Shown here: positions 41,155 through 49,445 of the stretch, in pieces
Numbering within the stretch: position 1 is the stretch's first letter
Layout of the letters: every line of letters starts with the position of its first letter
NCBI GenBank assembly: GCA_003223315.1
Contig: QHYR01000260.1
Location: 1-50,395 of the forward strand
Origin: Acidobacteriota bacterium
GTDB taxonomy: Bacteria > Acidobacteriota > Terriglobia > Acidiferrales > UBA7541
Direction: 5' to 3'
DNA length: 50,395 bases
Notes under the pieces: model-generated
Seen by the model: only the letters and a program-made list of their open reading frames with translations
Databases searched by the model: none
Told to the model about the DNA's origin: nothing
Program-made: the position numbers and the translations under genes

Positions 41155-42324
41155 TCAAGCGCAGTCGCCGCTAAACATGGCCCACGGGGTCGCCAAGAGG
41201 ATCTTGAGGTCCAGCCAGAGCGACCATTTTTGAGAGTAGCGCAAATCCAGGCGAACCATCTCGTCAAATCGTGTGCGGTTACGCCCGCTCACTTGCCACA
41301 GACCCGTAACACCGGGTTTCAATTCCAGAACTCTTCTTCTATGCCAAACGTCATAGACCTCAAACTCGTAGGGGACCGGGGGACGAGGGCCGACGAGAGA
41401 CATCTCCCCGCGAAGGACGTTCCAAAACTGCGGAAATTCGTCGAGGCTGGTCTTGCGCAAGATGCGTCCAATCGGGGTAACGCGCGGATCGCCCGTGATT
41501 TTGTAAAGGGCCTTTTGGGAATCGCCTGCATGAGCCGACTGAGCATTTCCGGCGATGAATTGCTGGACATACTCACGGTGAATTTTAGCGTCACAGTCCG
41601 TGTACATGGTGCGAAATTTCAGGCATTTGAAGCGCGCACCGAACTGCCCTAGCCGCTCCTGCTCATAGAGAACTGGCCCTTTCGAAGTGAGCTTTACGAG
41701 AAGAGCAATCGCCGCCAGGAAGGGGAGAGCGAGGAACAACAGCGCGGTGCTCCCGGCAACATCGATGACGCGCTTGAGCGCCAAATGAACGCGCTTCTTT
41801 GCCAACCGAGGCTGCAACTCCGGGTAAAGTTTGGAATCGCCAATCCAGCCCGCATTATCTCGATCCCAATCTTCCGGGAAGATATGTCCAGTGATAGCAA
41901 GTTTCGAAATACCGTCCCTCCCGACGGTTTCGAGTAAAGCCGACACAACTTTTTTACGCAGGCTTTGAGCGACTGCCACCTTTTCAGTTTGGTTAATTTC
42001 CGTAAAAATAATGCCCAACGTTACGGACTCTCGATACCACCCAATTAGGTCAGATTCCCGCGTGTTTGACACTAAAGTCGAAACGGCCCGCTGGAGAACG
42101 CGCCGGTCCGGATCGCTTTGAGTATTCGAATGAACGAGCACCAGCACGAAGGGCCGGCGAGACCGTTCTGCACGGTGCCGTTCGACCAGCAGGACATTCT
42201 GAAAGACCTCTTCCCCAAAAATCCCAGGCCGGCTGACAAGTCCATTCGCTACGGCAGAAGCTCTGCTCGAATTTGCCAGGCGAGGCTTGAAACCAATCAA
42301 AGAAGCAATTGTGTAGTCCGCCAT
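41155..42324 (-). CDS. Undecaprenyl-phosphate sugar phosphotransferase with GGDEF-like N-terminal domain
   Basis: 389 residues. The C-terminal ~200 residues are a bacterial sugar transferase: a membrane helix in [19 protein letters not shown] (about 184-202), [22 protein letters not shown], then the Asp-Glu catalytic dyad in [20 protein letters not shown] (about 298-317). It moves a sugar-1-phosphate from a nucleotide sugar to undecaprenyl phosphate, starting the repeat unit. Unlike WcaJ/WbaP there is no multi-helix N-terminus; residues about 38-140 look like a degenerate nucleotide-cyclase/GGDEF fold without the GGDEF motif. ATG 42324 lies 100 bp after the NusG remnant. It is the only such transferase in the window. 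Confidence 0.87.
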
Positions 42325-42424: not shown

Positions 42425-42679
42425 CTAGCTGTCGCGGAAAGGTGCTTTACCAGCGAGATCAAGTAGGAGGGTACGCCACTTATGAGTGTTCAACTGCCGC
42501 TTTACCGGCTCTCCTTTGTAGAAAATCAGTCCGAGGACACGTTCATAGCCCTTACCACGCAGCATCGCTGCAACGAAATGCTCATACCTGGACCTGGTTT
42601 GAAGCGCGAACCACGGGTAGTTATCGGCTACTGCTTTCATTTCGGCTCCAGAGGTAGTCAGTCGATTTGCTTGTCTCAT
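42425..42679 (-). pseudogene. Decayed NusG/RfaH-like antiterminator gene
   Basis: The first ~40 residues match the intact NusG-like protein at 48526-49254 (PWFALQTRSRYEHFVAAMLR versus PWLAVQTRSRYENFAASHLR), the conserved start of the NusG N-terminal domain. After GKGYE the reading diverges (ERVLGLIFYKGEPVK) and stops at 84 residues, so the rest of the NGN domain and the KOW domain are missing. An ops-like element precedes it at 42690-42712, as for the intact paralogue. It is best read as a duplicated and broken copy in the middle of the export operon. Confidence 0.78.
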
Positions 42680-42689
42680 TCCTGACTGG

Positions 42690-42712
42690 GCAAGCTACCG
42701 CCATGAGAGTCC
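42690..42712 (-). promoter_or_regulatory. ops-like antitermination element, copy 2
   Basis: Minus strand: core GGCGGTAGCTTGC (42702-42690) preceded by GGACTCTCAT. The core matches the enterobacterial RfaH ops consensus GGCGGTAG-C/T-n-T. The 23-bp block differs from the copy at 49288-49310 at two positions. It lies 11 bp before the first ATG of the NusG remnant and in front of the sugar phosphotransferase operon segment. Confidence 0.65.
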
Positions 42713-42853
42713 CCAATTTCGAGTCCTAGACCGCTGAACGACCTAGCAAACCAAATAACTCGGCCCGTTAAATAAGGGAATCTGGGCGCTGGAAAAATAT
42801 AGGCAGGCGCGAACCAAGCGTGCCTTGCGATGACGAAACGGACGGACTGGCCA

Positions 42854-43676
42854 TCATTTCTTGTCCATCCCGTTTCCACCGTAATAGGGATAAGCGCCGT
42901 AGGTCGCCTCTTTTTCTTCGGCGCGGTTCAAAACTACGCCCAGGATTTTTTTCCCCCGAAGCTCCTGCAAAGCTGTGCTAACCACGTCGTATCCCGTCGA
43001 ACCGGCACGGACCACTACGATGACTCCATCGCACCGCCCTGCCAATACGATCGCGTCGGATACGGGCAGGACAGGTGGCGCGTCAATGATGACCCAGTCG
43101 AATAACGCGGCCATTTGCCGCAAGAAACATTCCAAGCGCTCAGTGGACAGCAATTCCGTCGGGTTGCTGACTGCGCTACCCGCGGAGATGAAAAAAAGCT
43201 TACCCTCTGTGTCCGTTTGGATAATTGATGATGCATCGGCCGCCCCTTGGAGGAACTCCGTCAGTCCCGGCGCTCCCGGAACCCCCAGGCATGTGGCGAG
43301 CTTCGGCGCGCGCAGGTCTCCATCCACCAACAACACGTATCGATTGTGCTGCCGCATCATCGCTAAGGCGAGGTTCAACGATACAAAGCTTTTCCCCTCG
43401 GCGGGTAGGCTACTTGTTACCAGCAGCGTGTGGAGAGGCTCATTGTCTCGAAATTCGTACAGCCGTGTACGTAATTTGCTGAACTGCTCGGCACACGAGG
43501 TGAAAGATTTGCTGTTGGAGAACGCACTGTAGGTGGGATCCAGCGTCCAGCCGGGCTTTCTGCAGCGCTGCCACAAATCATTGAGCCCGAGAATGGTTTG
43601 GTTTCGCCTCCCCTGGAAATAGGGCCGGCTCCCGACCGTGCGCAGCTTGCTTCAAAGCCTCATGGATGCGGCTCAT
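42854..43676 (-). CDS. CapB/CpsD-type bacterial tyrosine kinase, frameshifted near its N-terminus
   Basis: ATG 43676 overlaps the stop of the ExeA-like gene (ATGA) and reads MSRIHEALKQAAHG, the usual opening of CpsD/CapB kinases, but meets TGA at 43580-43578 after 32 codons. The rest (WQRCRKPGW onward) is in the next frame, open from a TTG at 43576, down to 42854. That part has Walker A PAEGKSFVSLN, Walker A' VLLVDGDLRAP, Walker B WVIIDAPP, and a C-terminal tyrosine cluster YGAYPYY. BY-kinases phosphorylate their own Tyr tail and partner with GumC/Wzz to control chain length. Either the gene is shifted in this strain, uses stop-restart (TGA then TTG), or one base is wrong. Confidence 0.8.
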
Positions 43677-44626
43677 TGTTCGCTTTCTCCACCGCGGGCC
43701 GGTACCGAGGTGGGCGAGGAACTCAGACCAGTATCACCGAGCATCCCCCGATTTGCGTCCCAGTCTCCGGGATTCCTCTGGTACTTGCGGCTGCTCGGCG
43801 AAGTGTCCGATGCGGCCCTGTCGAGGTCAAAATCCTTTGCCACTGCGGCGACGTGGGCCGCCGAGACGGAGCGCGTTTGATCTGCAAAAGCATGGATGAG
43901 AGCATGCTCACAGAGGATGTTGATCACACGCGGAATTCCTTGCGAGTAGGTGTACACGCTCTCCATGGCTTCGGGAGAAAAGATGGGCTGGCCCTCTGCT
44001 CCCGCAATGAAAAGGCGCTTTACGATATAGCCTTGAGTCTCCTCAGCAGAAAGCGCAGCCGTCTGGCAGCGTATCGTGATTCGCTGTCGAAGCTGTCGAA
44101 GCTGGGTACATTTGAGTTTTTCTTCGAGCTCCGGTTGGCCGGACAAAACAATTTGTAGCAATTTCTCGGTCGACGTCTCGAGGTTGGTGAGGAGACGGAT
44201 TTCTTCCAGTACCGCAACTGAAAGATTTTGCGCCTCGTCCACGATGAGCACCGCCGTCTGTCCAGCGCGAAACCGGTCCAAAAGCCAGTGATTCAGGCGT
44301 GACACTTTCTCGCTCTTCGTGTTCGACTCGCAGGCGATCCCGAAATCAGTCATCAAACAGTCGAACAACCCACCGACACTGAGCCGTGTGTTAAAGATGA
44401 AGGCAGTAACCGCTCGGGCTTGGCGAAGGCCGTCCAGCAACGCGTGGAGCAATGTGGTCTTGCCTGTTCCCACCTCACCCGTCATCAGAATGATCCCGTA
44501 CCGGTTATGGATTCCATACGCTAGACTAGCAAGCGCTTCCTGAGTACTCGGAGTCAGATATAAATACCGAGGGTCTGGATTGACTCGGAATGGGTCTTCT
44601 CGCAGCCCGAAGAACTGTTGATACAT
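43673..44626 (-). CDS. ExeA/GspA-like AAA ATPase of EPS clusters
   Basis: 317 residues from ATG 44626 (MYQQFFGLREDPFRV), 8 nt after GAGG; GTG 44632 is alternative. Walker A GEVGTGKTT (about 50-58) and Walker B VLIVDEAQNL (about 122-131) define the AAA_22/ExeA fold; the N-terminal FFGLREDPF is the class signature. In exosortase/XrtA-type EPS clusters such ATPases sit next to the tyrosine kinase, as here. The role may be export regulation or peptidoglycan-linked assembly. The last ~50 residues are Ser/Pro-rich. The stop overlaps the kinase ATG. Confidence 0.85.
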   Translation of the reverse strand: MYQQFFGLREDPFRVNPDPRYLYLTPSTQEALASLAYGIHNRYGIILMTGEVGTGKTTLLHALLDGLRQARAVTAFIFNTRLSVGGLFDCLMTDFGIACESNTKSEKVSRLNHWLLDRFRAGQTAVLIVDEAQNLSVAVLEEIRLLTNLETSTEKLLQIVLSGQPELEEKLKCTQLRQLRQRITIRCQTAALSAEETQGYIVKRLFIAGAEGQPIFSPEAMESVYTYSQGIPRVINILCEHALIHAFADQTRSVSAAHVAAVAKDFDLDRAASDTSPSSRKYQRNPGDWDANRGMLGDTGLSSSPTSVPARGGESEQ

Positions 44627-44631
44627 TCCCA

Positions 44632-46404
44632 CTACCTCACAGATGCCCTGCGGGCACCGAGAGCGGGAAGTTCGGAGCGAGACACCAAGGGCGCCACGAT
44701 GTCCCTTTGCCCGCCCGATTCCATGGAAGGAATGACTGCAAGAGTTGGCACGCCGAGGTAAACCTCAACATCCCGAAGCTTTCGAAGCGATTTATCGCGT
44801 GACTCTACCAGGTAAGCCAAACCTGCTCCCAGTCCAAGTCCGACCGCTAGACCGCCGAGGGCAAAAGGACCCCGATTGGGAAAAGAAGGCTGCTCCGGGA
44901 AGCTCGGCGGGTCCAGCATACGGAAGTTCTCACCCTGCTGGCGGCGTTCCAGTTCGGTGGCCATTTGGGCTTCGTCCCGTTTCTTGAGAAGTTCATTGTA
45001 AAAGTTGAGTGCGGTCTGATAATCGCGCGTCAGGGCCTTAAATTCCTGTTGGACCATCGGGCTCAGCTGGATTCGGGCCTGAAGAGTTTTGATTTGCTGC
45101 TGAAGCTGCTTTTGCTCTTCCTTCTTCTGGCTGACCGTTAGGTCGGCTTGGTGAAGCTGCGCCCGCAGTTGCTGGATCTGGAGTGGCTCGACAAGTGGCG
45201 CCTTTACTTCTTGCTTGACCGACTGGCCCTGATCTTGGGAAGGCACATCTTGAACTTCCTTTTGGAGCTGGGCAATTTCCTCTTTGAGTTTCAACACAGC
45301 AGGATGCTTGTCGGTATAACGAGCCTGCAGTGACGGGAGCTGGTTCTCCAGGTCACTCAGCTGCTGTTGCAAGGTTTGAGGACTACGGCCATCCGCGGAT
45401 GATTTCCAAGCTGCTAGCTGCTGGGTGAGCATCGATTCTGCGAACGCCTTGGTCTGCTGGGCTTGGTTGAGACCTTGAGTGACAGCCTCGAGTTGCGGCG
45501 TCAGTCCCGCCAGCAGGGTGAGGTTTGTCTGTTCGTCTCCTGGCTGCGCTCCCACATAATGGCTTTGAAATGCCGCCAGTTTGGTGTCCTGCTCATCGAG
45601 CTTTGCCTTAGCATCGTCTAGTTGCTTGGCCAGGAATTGGGTAGTGTCTTCGGCCTGCTGTTCGCGTAGGTGCAAATTCTGTTCCATGAATAAGGAGGTG
45701 ATCTCCGTGCACACTTGCTGCGATAGCTTGGCTTGTCCGAGCGTCACATCAATGTTAAAGCCGAGCAGTGCCGGAGATAGTGTCCCCGGCGTTGGGGCCA
45801 GTGGGGTTACCTCAATTGACTTCTGCAGCCGGTCGACGAGTACTTCCATTGGGGCCTGGTTAACATCCTTCGTATATAGGCCGGATTGCGCCACGGGGTG
45901 TTGCAGGCGCGTGCGACTGAGCAGCCGATCAACGAGTACCTCCATCGGGGCCCGGTTCACATCCTTGTATAGGCCAAATTGCTCCACGAGGTGTTGCAGC
46001 CGCGTGCGACTGAGGATCTCTCCTTGCATGCTGGCAAGACGCCGGTTCAGGTCATCGCTCACCACTGGTTTGACATAACTATCCGGTACGATTGGTGCTT
46101 CGACCAGAACCCGCGTATGTGAGGTATACCGTTTCGGCAAAACAAGGGAGAGAAGAAAACCAGCTACAGCGCATAGAATCGCCGGAATGAGCAACCACCA
46201 AAACCTCCGTCGAAGAATCGCCAGCCAATCTTCAACACTTAATTCTCGTTGAACGACCATTTCCCCTCGGTCACTTTTCAGAAAAGTCTTCGGCATTTCA
46301 GGCCAACCGCCCTGCGAGTCTCGCTCGGAGTTCGCTTGGCCAGATAGCAAGTTACAGAAGCGTGTGTTTCCCGCCAATCCGGTACAGTTCCCAAACGTTG
46401 GCAT
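44632..46404 (-). CDS. GumC/Wzz-type polysaccharide co-polymerase
   Basis: 590 residues from ATG 46404 (GAGG 5 nt upstream); ATG 46296 or 46260 gives the more usual N-terminus (VQRELSVEDWLAILRRR). TM1 lies at about 68-90 (WWLLIPAILCAVAGFLL) and TM2 near 530-548 (FALGGLAVGLGLGAGLAYL) after the Pro-rich PPSFPEQPSFPNRGP. A long coiled-coil periplasmic part (about 240-490) is rich in Gln, Leu and Lys. These proteins set glycan chain length and couple to the BY-kinase and OPX exporter. Residues about 131-193 contain a tandem duplication of 31-32 residues. A Tyr-kinase domain is absent, as expected with a separate CapB gene. Confidence 0.87.
   Translation of the reverse strand: MPTFGNCTGLAGNTRFCNLLSGQANSERDSQGGWPEMPKTFLKSDRGEMVVQRELSVEDWLAILRRRFWWLLIPAILCAVAGFLLSLVLPKRYTSHTRVLVEAPIVPDSYVKPVVSDDLNRRLASMQGEILSRTRLQHLVEQFGLYKDVNRAPMEVLVDRLLSRTRLQHPVAQSGLYTKDVNQAPMEVLVDRLQKSIEVTPLAPTPGTLSPALLGFNIDVTLGQAKLSQQVCTEITSLFMEQNLHLREQQAEDTTQFLAKQLDDAKAKLDEQDTKLAAFQSHYVGAQPGDEQTNLTLLAGLTPQLEAVTQGLNQAQQTKAFAESMLTQQLAAWKSSADGRSPQTLQQQLSDLENQLPSLQARYTDKHPAVLKLKEEIAQLQKEVQDVPSQDQGQSVKQEVKAPLVEPLQIQQLRAQLHQADLTVSQKKEEQKQLQQQIKTLQARIQLSPMVQQEFKALTRDYQTALNFYNELLKKRDEAQMATELERRQQGENFRMLDPPSFPEQPSFPNRGPFALGGLAVGLGLGAGLAYLVESRDKSLRKLRDVEVYLGVPTLAVIPSMESGGQRDIVAPLVSRSELPALGARRASVR
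45826..46014 (-). repeat. In-frame tandem duplication within the co-polymerase gene
   Basis: Two direct copies, 45922-46014 (93 bp) and 45826-45921 (96 bp), encode LSRTRLQHLVEQFGLYKD and LSRTRLQHPVAQSGLYTKD, each ending APMEVLVDRL. The copies differ at about a dozen bases plus one inserted codon, so the duplication is fairly recent and under coding constraint. Confidence 0.88.
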
Positions 46405-47814: not shown

Positions 47815-48489
47815 TTAAGGCACTATAACTGTATCGCCCGCTTGCAGCTCGACGTCATCTTGGACGTCTTGGCCCTGTGTGATCCGCTTATAGTTGAATG
47901 GAAGCTTCACGGCCCCTCCGGCTGAAGTCTTTCGTAGCACATAGATTTTCTTGACCTTGGCGAAGTCTCGAAATCCTCCCGCCTGAGCCAAAGCATCAAG
48001 CACACTCGTGGGCCGAATCAGAGAAAACGAGCCAGGATGCTGGACCTCGCCTAAGACGTTGAATTTACGGCTGTTCATCTCTTCCACCGCAACTGTTACA
48101 GCTGGGTCTCTGACAAATTCGTTAAGCTTTTTCGAAATGCTGACCTGCAATAAGTCAGGGGTCAACCCACTGGCCTGAATTTCGCCCACGAGCGGTAGGG
48201 TAATCTTGCCGTCCATGCGAACGGGAACTTTGCCCGTAACTCCCGGTTCGTTCCACACGTTGATCGCGAGGAGGTCGCCGGGGCCAATAACATATGCCGT
48301 CTCAACTTTCAGGGGATTTGAGGATGCGGTTGCGCGGGAAACCTCAGTAGTCGCCCGGGCCACTTTGGCTTCGCTAGTGGAACGCGAACTGCTTTCTTGG
48401 TTCTGAGCCCGAGCGGTGCTAATTATCAGAGCGGCTGCGGCGACAACAATTAGCCTTTGCTTCCATGTGAGCGAGAATTCACACCTCAT
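47815..48489 (-). CDS. Polysaccharide export protein (OPX / Wza family), short form
   Basis: 224 residues, ATG 48489 with GGAGG 4 nt upstream. Signal peptide 1-28 ends ARAQ and has no lipobox Cys, unlike E. coli Wza. The polysaccharide-export domain begins YVIGPGDLLAINVWNEPGVT (about 66-85), with PLVGEIQASGLT, and one SLBB-like segment (VLGEVQHPGSFSL, SVLDALAQAGGF). The protein stops soon after, so it lacks the C-terminal outer-membrane helix of Wza. Export probably needs the barrel encoded 12 bp downstream. Periplasmic or outer-membrane associated. Confidence 0.88.
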   Translation of the reverse strand: MRCEFSLTWKQRLIVVAAAALIISTARAQNQESSSRSTSEAKVARATTEVSRATASSNPLKVETAYVIGPGDLLAINVWNEPGVTGKVPVRMDGKITLPLVGEIQASGLTPDLLQVSISKKLNEFVRDPAVTVAVEEMNSRKFNVLGEVQHPGSFSLIRPTSVLDALAQAGGFRDFAKVKKIYVLRKTSAGGAVKLPFNYKRITQGQDVQDDVELQAGDTVIVP

Positions 48490-49287: not shown

Positions 49288-49310
49288 GCAAGCCACCGCC
49301 ATAAGAGTCC
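49288..49310 (-). promoter_or_regulatory. ops-like antitermination element, copy 1
   Basis: Minus strand: GGACTCTTAT then core GGCGGTGGCTTGC (49300-49288), 34 bp before the NusG-like ATG. Compared with copy 2 (42690-42712) only two of 23 bases differ. The core GGCGGT-R-GC-n-T resembles the ops site recognised by RfaH, so the protein encoded downstream may bind it during transcription of its own leader. Confidence 0.65.
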
Positions 49311-49445
49311 TCGGGTCTCGGGAACTCAAATTCCAAAACGCGCTAGCGAAGCGTATGCAAGAACTCCGCGAGTCCGAAAGGGGTTCTGCCCGCTGGGGTA
49401 CAGCGCGCCCCTCACAGCCGTTTTCGACTGCCGCCATAGATTCGT

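Follow-up and report, generated by a model that had tools for sequence, protein, structure and literature searches.

The 23-bp block that lies in front of a NusG-like gene in this acidobacterial genome is very likely the 3′ half of an ops-type loading signal, in which, as read from sequence comparison, an RNA polymerase pause and a hairpin on the non-template DNA strand would together load the NusG paralogue in cis and in trans. The block belongs to a large family of leader signals in Acidobacteria that is apparently undescribed; full-text searches of openly available papers turned up neither ops elements in Acidobacteria nor GNA-type variants. Very probably, the exposed DNA strand of these acidobacterial leader signals forms minute hairpins that bring specialised NusG-type factors to RNA polymerase on long slime-polysaccharide operons, in the way that ops serves RfaH in E. 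coli. The window referred to throughout is the whole 50,395-nt stretch of DNA that was analysed; its features are collected in Table 1.

Table 1. Coordinates of the elements and associated genes in the window.
Feature	Position	Strand	Sequence or remark
ops-type element, intact paralogue	49289..49312	-	GAGGACTCTTATGGCGGTGGCTTG; family consensus TGGGACTCnnnnGGCGGTAGCnTG (consensus from 71 leaders)
Predicted non-template DNA mini-hairpin GC-GGTG-GC (positions 2-9)	49292..49299	-	E. coli ops hairpin: PMC5995543
Predicted pause dinucleotide T11-G12	49289..49290	-	Register shared by the loop types; for the part played by TG in ops, see PMC5995543
Specialised NusG paralogue (UpxY/RfaH-like), 242 aa	48526..49254	-	
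XrtA/PEP-CTERM-type polysaccharide export protein; first of the EPS genes that follow the paralogue	47815..48489	-	
EPS chain-length determinant, XrtA-associated ATPase, tyrosine autokinase	44632-46404, 43673-44632, 42854-43576	-	Presumed target operon
Second element, canonical	42691..42713	-	GGGACTCTCATGGCGGTAGCTTG
Remnant of second NusG paralogue (first ~41 residues recognisable)	42533..42655	-	51% identity over 41 aa
Priming sugar transferase (Bac_transf), following the second element	41155..42324	-	Candidate trans target

On the minus strand, positions 49288-49300 read GGCGGTGGCTTGC, 34 nt 5′ of the ATG (49254) of the 242-aa NusG-like open reading frame, and positions 42690-42702 read GGCGGTAGCTTGC, upstream of the truncated NusG remnant. 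The first-pass annotation had described near-identical 23-bp blocks before these two genes, and comparison of the two leaders bears this out: 21 of 23 positions are identical over the block, the upstream flanks are 21% and the downstream flanks 28% identical, and the best 23-mer match in 20 shuffled leader pairs is 13-16. Chance and simple duplication, considered as the origin of the window blocks, were both ruled out by this flank comparison together with the relatives described below. The block is real, but its proposed extent was too short; the conserved unit begins ~12 nt further 5′, with the GGGACTC part. The 11-nt core GGCGGTRGCNT with one mismatch allowed occurs 8 times in the window, where 6.6 are expected, and is not significant by itself; since the short core alone is no rarer there than chance, the significance of the case lies with the longer block and its relatives.

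The core had also been matched to the enterobacterial ops site. On the non-template strand, the 42690 copy carries the ops core GGCGGTAGCnTG exactly, but the 49288 copy departs from it by one change, A7G. The element of the intact gene has the loop GGTG for GGTA and AGG for GGG, and its loop is the only GNNG among ~70 GNNA-class elements; it is the canonical element that adjoins the truncated gene and the less canonical one that precedes the intact gene. The 49288 copy may be weakened, as A7T abolishes RfaH recruitment in E. coli (PMC5995543); it may have co-evolved with its diverged protein, or it may reflect a sequencing error. Having been kept despite the loss of its own gene, and lying before a sugar transferase, the canonical 42691 element is most readily understood as a trans target.

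The intact paralogue heads an XrtA/PEP-CTERM-type EPS cluster, and the second element is followed by the sugar transferase and more polysaccharide genes. The EPS genes between 41155 and 48489 resemble the XrtA/PEP-CTERM exopolysaccharide set (TIGR03027, TIGR03007, TIGR03015, TIGR03018), several of them falling just under the family cut-offs. Judged by contigs in common, the closest named relatives are 'gp2' Acidobacteria metagenome bins. The same genome as the window has a third paralogue copy (C155) with a canonical element, as well as an ordinary housekeeping nusG; a search of this genome with the GNA pattern returned only two-mismatch matches, which are chance-like.

Relatives of the paralogue were found by protein search in 81 of the 89 genomes of the source organism's family, and their leaders carry (T)GGGACTCnnnnGGCGGTAGCnTG ~40-110 nt before the conserved protein start. 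A regular expression covering all variants, fitted on this family leader set, recognises the ~24-nt element (TGGGACTCnnnnGGCGGTAGCnTG) in 80 of 110 paralogue leaders; the same expression is expected 0.65 times in dinucleotide-model shuffles and matches 3 times on the reverse strand and in 13 of 2736 equally long windows elsewhere. The first-pass annotation had suggested looking upstream of orthologous NusG-like genes and at random sites: the element is present at the former and far less frequent at the latter. It also occurs in 13 of 25 leaders of the class. In a held-out test, which drew 20 new paralogue leaders from families of the class other than this one, nine match strictly and four more by eye, and none of 20 housekeeping nusG leaders carries the element. 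Related paralogue subfamilies have element variants with the same layout; no element can be recognised at about a quarter of the family paralogues, and beyond the class few paralogues carry any form of it.

Across 84,980 species genomes, the exact sequence GGGACTCnnnnGGCGGTAGCnTG (18 specified bases) was found on 19 contigs, of which 18 are labelled as Acidobacteria groups and one, of 4.5 kb, as Verrucomicrobia. A NusG paralogue follows 16 of the 19 exact copies, and a polysaccharide operon follows the other three (L078 and L080, which overlap L181 and L180, and L086). The Verrucomicrobia-labelled contig (L085) carries the element and a paralogue resembling that of the gp2 acidobacterial locus L072, and is possibly misbinned or the product of a recent transfer. 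The extended motif was considered as a phylum-wide trait and rejected as such, being rare beyond the family: among 396 genomes of the phylum an exact match occurs only in the source organism's own genome, and the near matches are chance-like except for two or three. Sporadic elements are seen in other acidobacterial classes (GGGACTGACGGGGCGGTAGC, GGGACAGAAAGGGGCGAAGC and GGGGACGAAGGGGGCGAAGC at L241, L243 and L248). Sporadic hairpins aside, the element was not found in 15 sampled UpxY/RfaH leaders on plasmids of Bacteroidota and Alphaproteobacteria.

The 89 family genomes hold 50 matches with at most one mismatch: 40 precede a paralogue gene, nine (the 42691 element of the window included) precede polysaccharide genes without an intact paralogue, and one is chance-like. 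The genes downstream comprise priming sugar transferases, a UDP-sugar dehydrogenase, a Wzm/Wzt-type ABC exporter, DegT aminotransferases, asparagine synthase with glycosyltransferases, Polysacc_synt_2 with a PseC-like aminotransferase, and Poly_export with a chain-length determinant. The layout is the same as that of RfaH/JUMPstart signals ahead of polysaccharide genes. The autoregulation suggested at first is likely, and so is action in trans, since the element also precedes EPS operons that have no NusG gene.

A loop-agnostic search, specifying the upstream half and a GC...GC stem and admitting any loop of 2-6 nt, returned 109 elements. GNA or GNNA loops make up 104 of these, compared with 12 of 219 control matches: 54 are GNNA (46 GGTA; also GTTA, GTAA, GATA, GTGA and GAGA), 50 are GNA (30 GGA, 20 GAA), and five have other loops. 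Loops of these two classes, when at least two GC pairs close them, form the two known families of exceptionally stable DNA mini-hairpins (PMC4686876). The stem, equivalent to C3:G8 of ops, is conserved. With generic DNA folding parameters, the GGTA hairpin reaches no more than -0.7 kcal/mol, a weak fold, and the GNA hairpins do not fold; by our assumption, such parameters probably lack the special-loop bonus.

The two loop classes keep a common register. Of 71 GNNA elements, 86% have a T at +2 from the end of the stem, and of 55 GNA elements, 84% have it at +3 (Fisher test of +2 versus +3, p ~5e-21, uncorrected for relatedness, which inflates it); counted from the base before the stem, both classes have T at 11 and mostly a purine at 12. 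One base lost from the loop is one gained after the stem, so that the distance from T11-R12 to the upstream G's is kept. We interpret this pattern, a fixed distance between the G's and T-R with freedom between them, as what a polymerase-bound bubble would predict. On the paralogue protein tree, loop class changes 7 times, compared with at least 36 times in label shuffles, and both classes are present in 16 of 54 family genomes. Tracking of the protein tree fits loops that are specific to their proteins, and it also fits simple co-inheritance of gene and leader. Tentatively, and with less conviction than we attach to the loading signal itself, we suggest a loop code, in which each paralogue subfamily would read its own GNA or GNNA hairpin at constant register, several ops-type circuits would coexist in one genome, and the factors would be non-autoinhibited and operon-encoded.

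The window protein contains the NusG NGN domain (Pfam). Its best family match is UpxY (NF033644; 92.2 bits, cut-off 100), where many relatives exceed the cut-off and reach up to 142 bits; it scores 77.7 bits against the RfaH equivalog (NCBIfam), below the cut-off of 144.5, and 49.8 bits against LoaP (NF033641; cut-off 125), and NusG is also a weaker match than UpxY. A C-terminal extension of ~50 aa, modelled with low confidence, is absent from 15 aligned relatives. At the residues with which RfaH reads ops, the window protein has R for K10, H for H20, G for R23, I for Q24 and P for R73. Compared with E. coli RfaH, the paralogues generally have a basic residue at K10, H, Q or L at H20, G or N at R23, P at R73 and usually K or R at Q24. 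The RfaH autoinhibition residues E48 and F130 are not kept, both being L in the window protein. AlphaFold2 predicts a confident NGN domain and, at low confidence (pLDDT ~50-72), a KOW domain of the beta type, not an alpha hairpin, and the NGN model superposes on ops-bound RfaH (8pen) with a TM score of 0.84 and 1.7 Å over 96 residues. The window protein is not an RfaH orthologue; it resembles an ops reader in the anatomy of its target, with no sign of the RfaH fold switch. That the block is an ops-like cis element recognised by this antiterminator, as first proposed, holds as far as the association with paralogue leaders (80 of 110) goes, but recruitment is presumed, and most of the residues by which RfaH contacts ops are missing.

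The sequences themselves show the element, its strand and position, its link to EPS operons and paralogues, the constancy of its register and the GNA/GNNA rule for its loops; from these we infer a mechanism of pausing, hairpin extrusion, recruitment and antitermination. We envision that, in the EPS leader, RNA polymerase would pause when T11 occupies the active site and R12 is about to follow. Within the exposed non-template strand, the stretch from the upstream G's to the pause dinucleotide would extrude the mini-hairpin GC-GN(N)A-GC, and the NGN domain of the paralogue would read the base or bases in the middle of its loop. The loaded factor would then stay on the polymerase through the long EPS operon. 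As the product of the first gene, it would autoregulate its own operon, and unlinked EPS operons that carry this element could load it in trans too.

Recognition could instead take place at the RNA level, with structure in the nascent leader RNA being read as for LoaP or the JUMPstart RNA stem-loop, although we regard this as unlikely. GNA-type elements do have a conserved stem (CCTGT...ACRGG) directly 5′ of the hairpin and ending at it, with 90.9% of cells paired and 62% for the best slid version, and the E. coli JUMPstart stem is found in that place too; in the GNA class this upstream stem may be a pause hairpin. The stem is missing, however, from the GNNA types, that of the window included (best 4-pair stem in 24%), and its covariation in the GNA types is not above shuffles. 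No conserved RNA hairpin that could serve as a LoaP-like target was found in the GNNA class, and GNNA loops dominated by GGTA are not the GNRA loop of RNA. The fixed distance to T11-R12 across loop lengths, moreover, fits a polymerase-bound bubble. It is less probable still that the block is an operator or promoter element for a regulator of initiation at EPS operons. Its location upstream of operons would suit such a role, and a search of the leader for an intrinsic terminator or a sigma-70 promoter found neither; yet the element is strongly biased in strand (80 versus 3) and lacks an operator-sized dyad, and neither the loop-length compensation that keeps the T11-R12 register nor a loop class that follows the NusG tree is expected of a duplex operator.

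A pure polymerase pause, or a Rho/NusG attenuation site, that the neighbouring paralogue does not read is just as improbable as an operator. The G1G2...T11-G12 arrangement fits the consensus pause (PMC5995543), but that consensus leaves the centre variable, whereas here no part is more constrained than the centre (GNA/GNNA in 104 of 109), and the element is missing before housekeeping nusG. The least credible of the alternatives makes the block a coding start, a short leader peptide or a duplicate of the gene start that has been inherited. The block does allow, in the window and in L070, an open reading frame starting MAVAC (ATG GCG GTA GCT TG), but its ATG lacks conservation, the bases at -3 to -1 from the stem being variable, the spacing to the gene ranges from about -42 to -190, and the flanks of the two window copies are unrelated. 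Our preferred reading remains that of an ops-type loading signal read on DNA by the paralogue.

The way in which operon-encoded paralogues, UpxY and TaA among them, are led to their targets has been called unknown (PMC7593976); here a whole class of Acidobacteria offers a candidate answer, and one that comes with variation of its own. Its loop variants, together with the compensation of the register, are many experiments done by nature to tell the structural bases of ops from those that are read, and provide directly testable pairs of protein and loop; the elements also predict EPS regulons in hard-to-grow soil bacteria. Recognition of ops has been portrayed as a late innovation, bound up with the autoinhibition of RfaH in Proteobacteria (PMC7593976); if the loop code were true, ops-type reading of DNA hairpins would either predate RfaH and extend beyond it or have converged with it. 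A 2026 preprint holds that beta-type factors act locally and without ops (PMC13015549), a view that would need revision if the present reading holds.

Several known systems share parts of this arrangement. The DNA mini-hairpins of the d(GCGAAGC) kind have exactly the stem and the GNA and GNNA loop classes of the acidobacterial elements, but were studied as oligonucleotides; besides E. coli ops, we know of no report of GNA/GNNA mini-hairpins as natural targets of NusG paralogues. The JUMPstart RNA (RF01707) is a composite polysaccharide leader that ends in ops, and the acidobacterial GNA-type elements likewise have a stem directly 5′ of ops. The RF01707 model found E. coli at 1.1e-11 as a control and had no match in the window up to E=10 or in six acidobacterial loci up to E=5. 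The E. coli rfb JUMPstart (L175:4638-4676, TGTAAAGCCAGGGGCGGTAGCGTG) shares TGTAA and its spacing with acidobacterial GNA-type elements (TGTAAGTCACAGGGCGGAGCTATG), and L205, L207, L209 and other GNA-type leaders have a stem CTGT...ACAG directly 5′ of the mini-hairpin, placed like the E. coli rfb JUMPstart stem. UpxY of Bacteroides capsule operons, which acts within its 5′ leader according to reviews, is the first gene of a polysaccharide operon, as is the window paralogue; the sampled UpxY leaders of Bacteroides and Spirosoma contain no such element. RfaH has in common with the acidobacterial paralogue the NGN fold, the basic residue equivalent to K10, an ops-type target and targets in trans. 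In E. coli ops, the loop G4-A7 is GGTA and the stem C3:G8, T6 is flipped into RfaH, G5 and T6 are read directly, and T11-G12 is needed for pausing (PMC5995543). E. coli ops (GGCGGTAGCGTG) and the acidobacterial element agree in the common core, the strand relative to the operon, the GC stem with a GNNA loop, T11-G12 and the location in the leader of a polysaccharide operon. Unlike E. coli ops, the acidobacterial element belongs to a different phylum, is paired with paralogues encoded in the target operon, has an extra conserved 5′ part (TGGGACTC), uses GNA and other GNNA loops as well, and usually has T or C, not G, at position 10.
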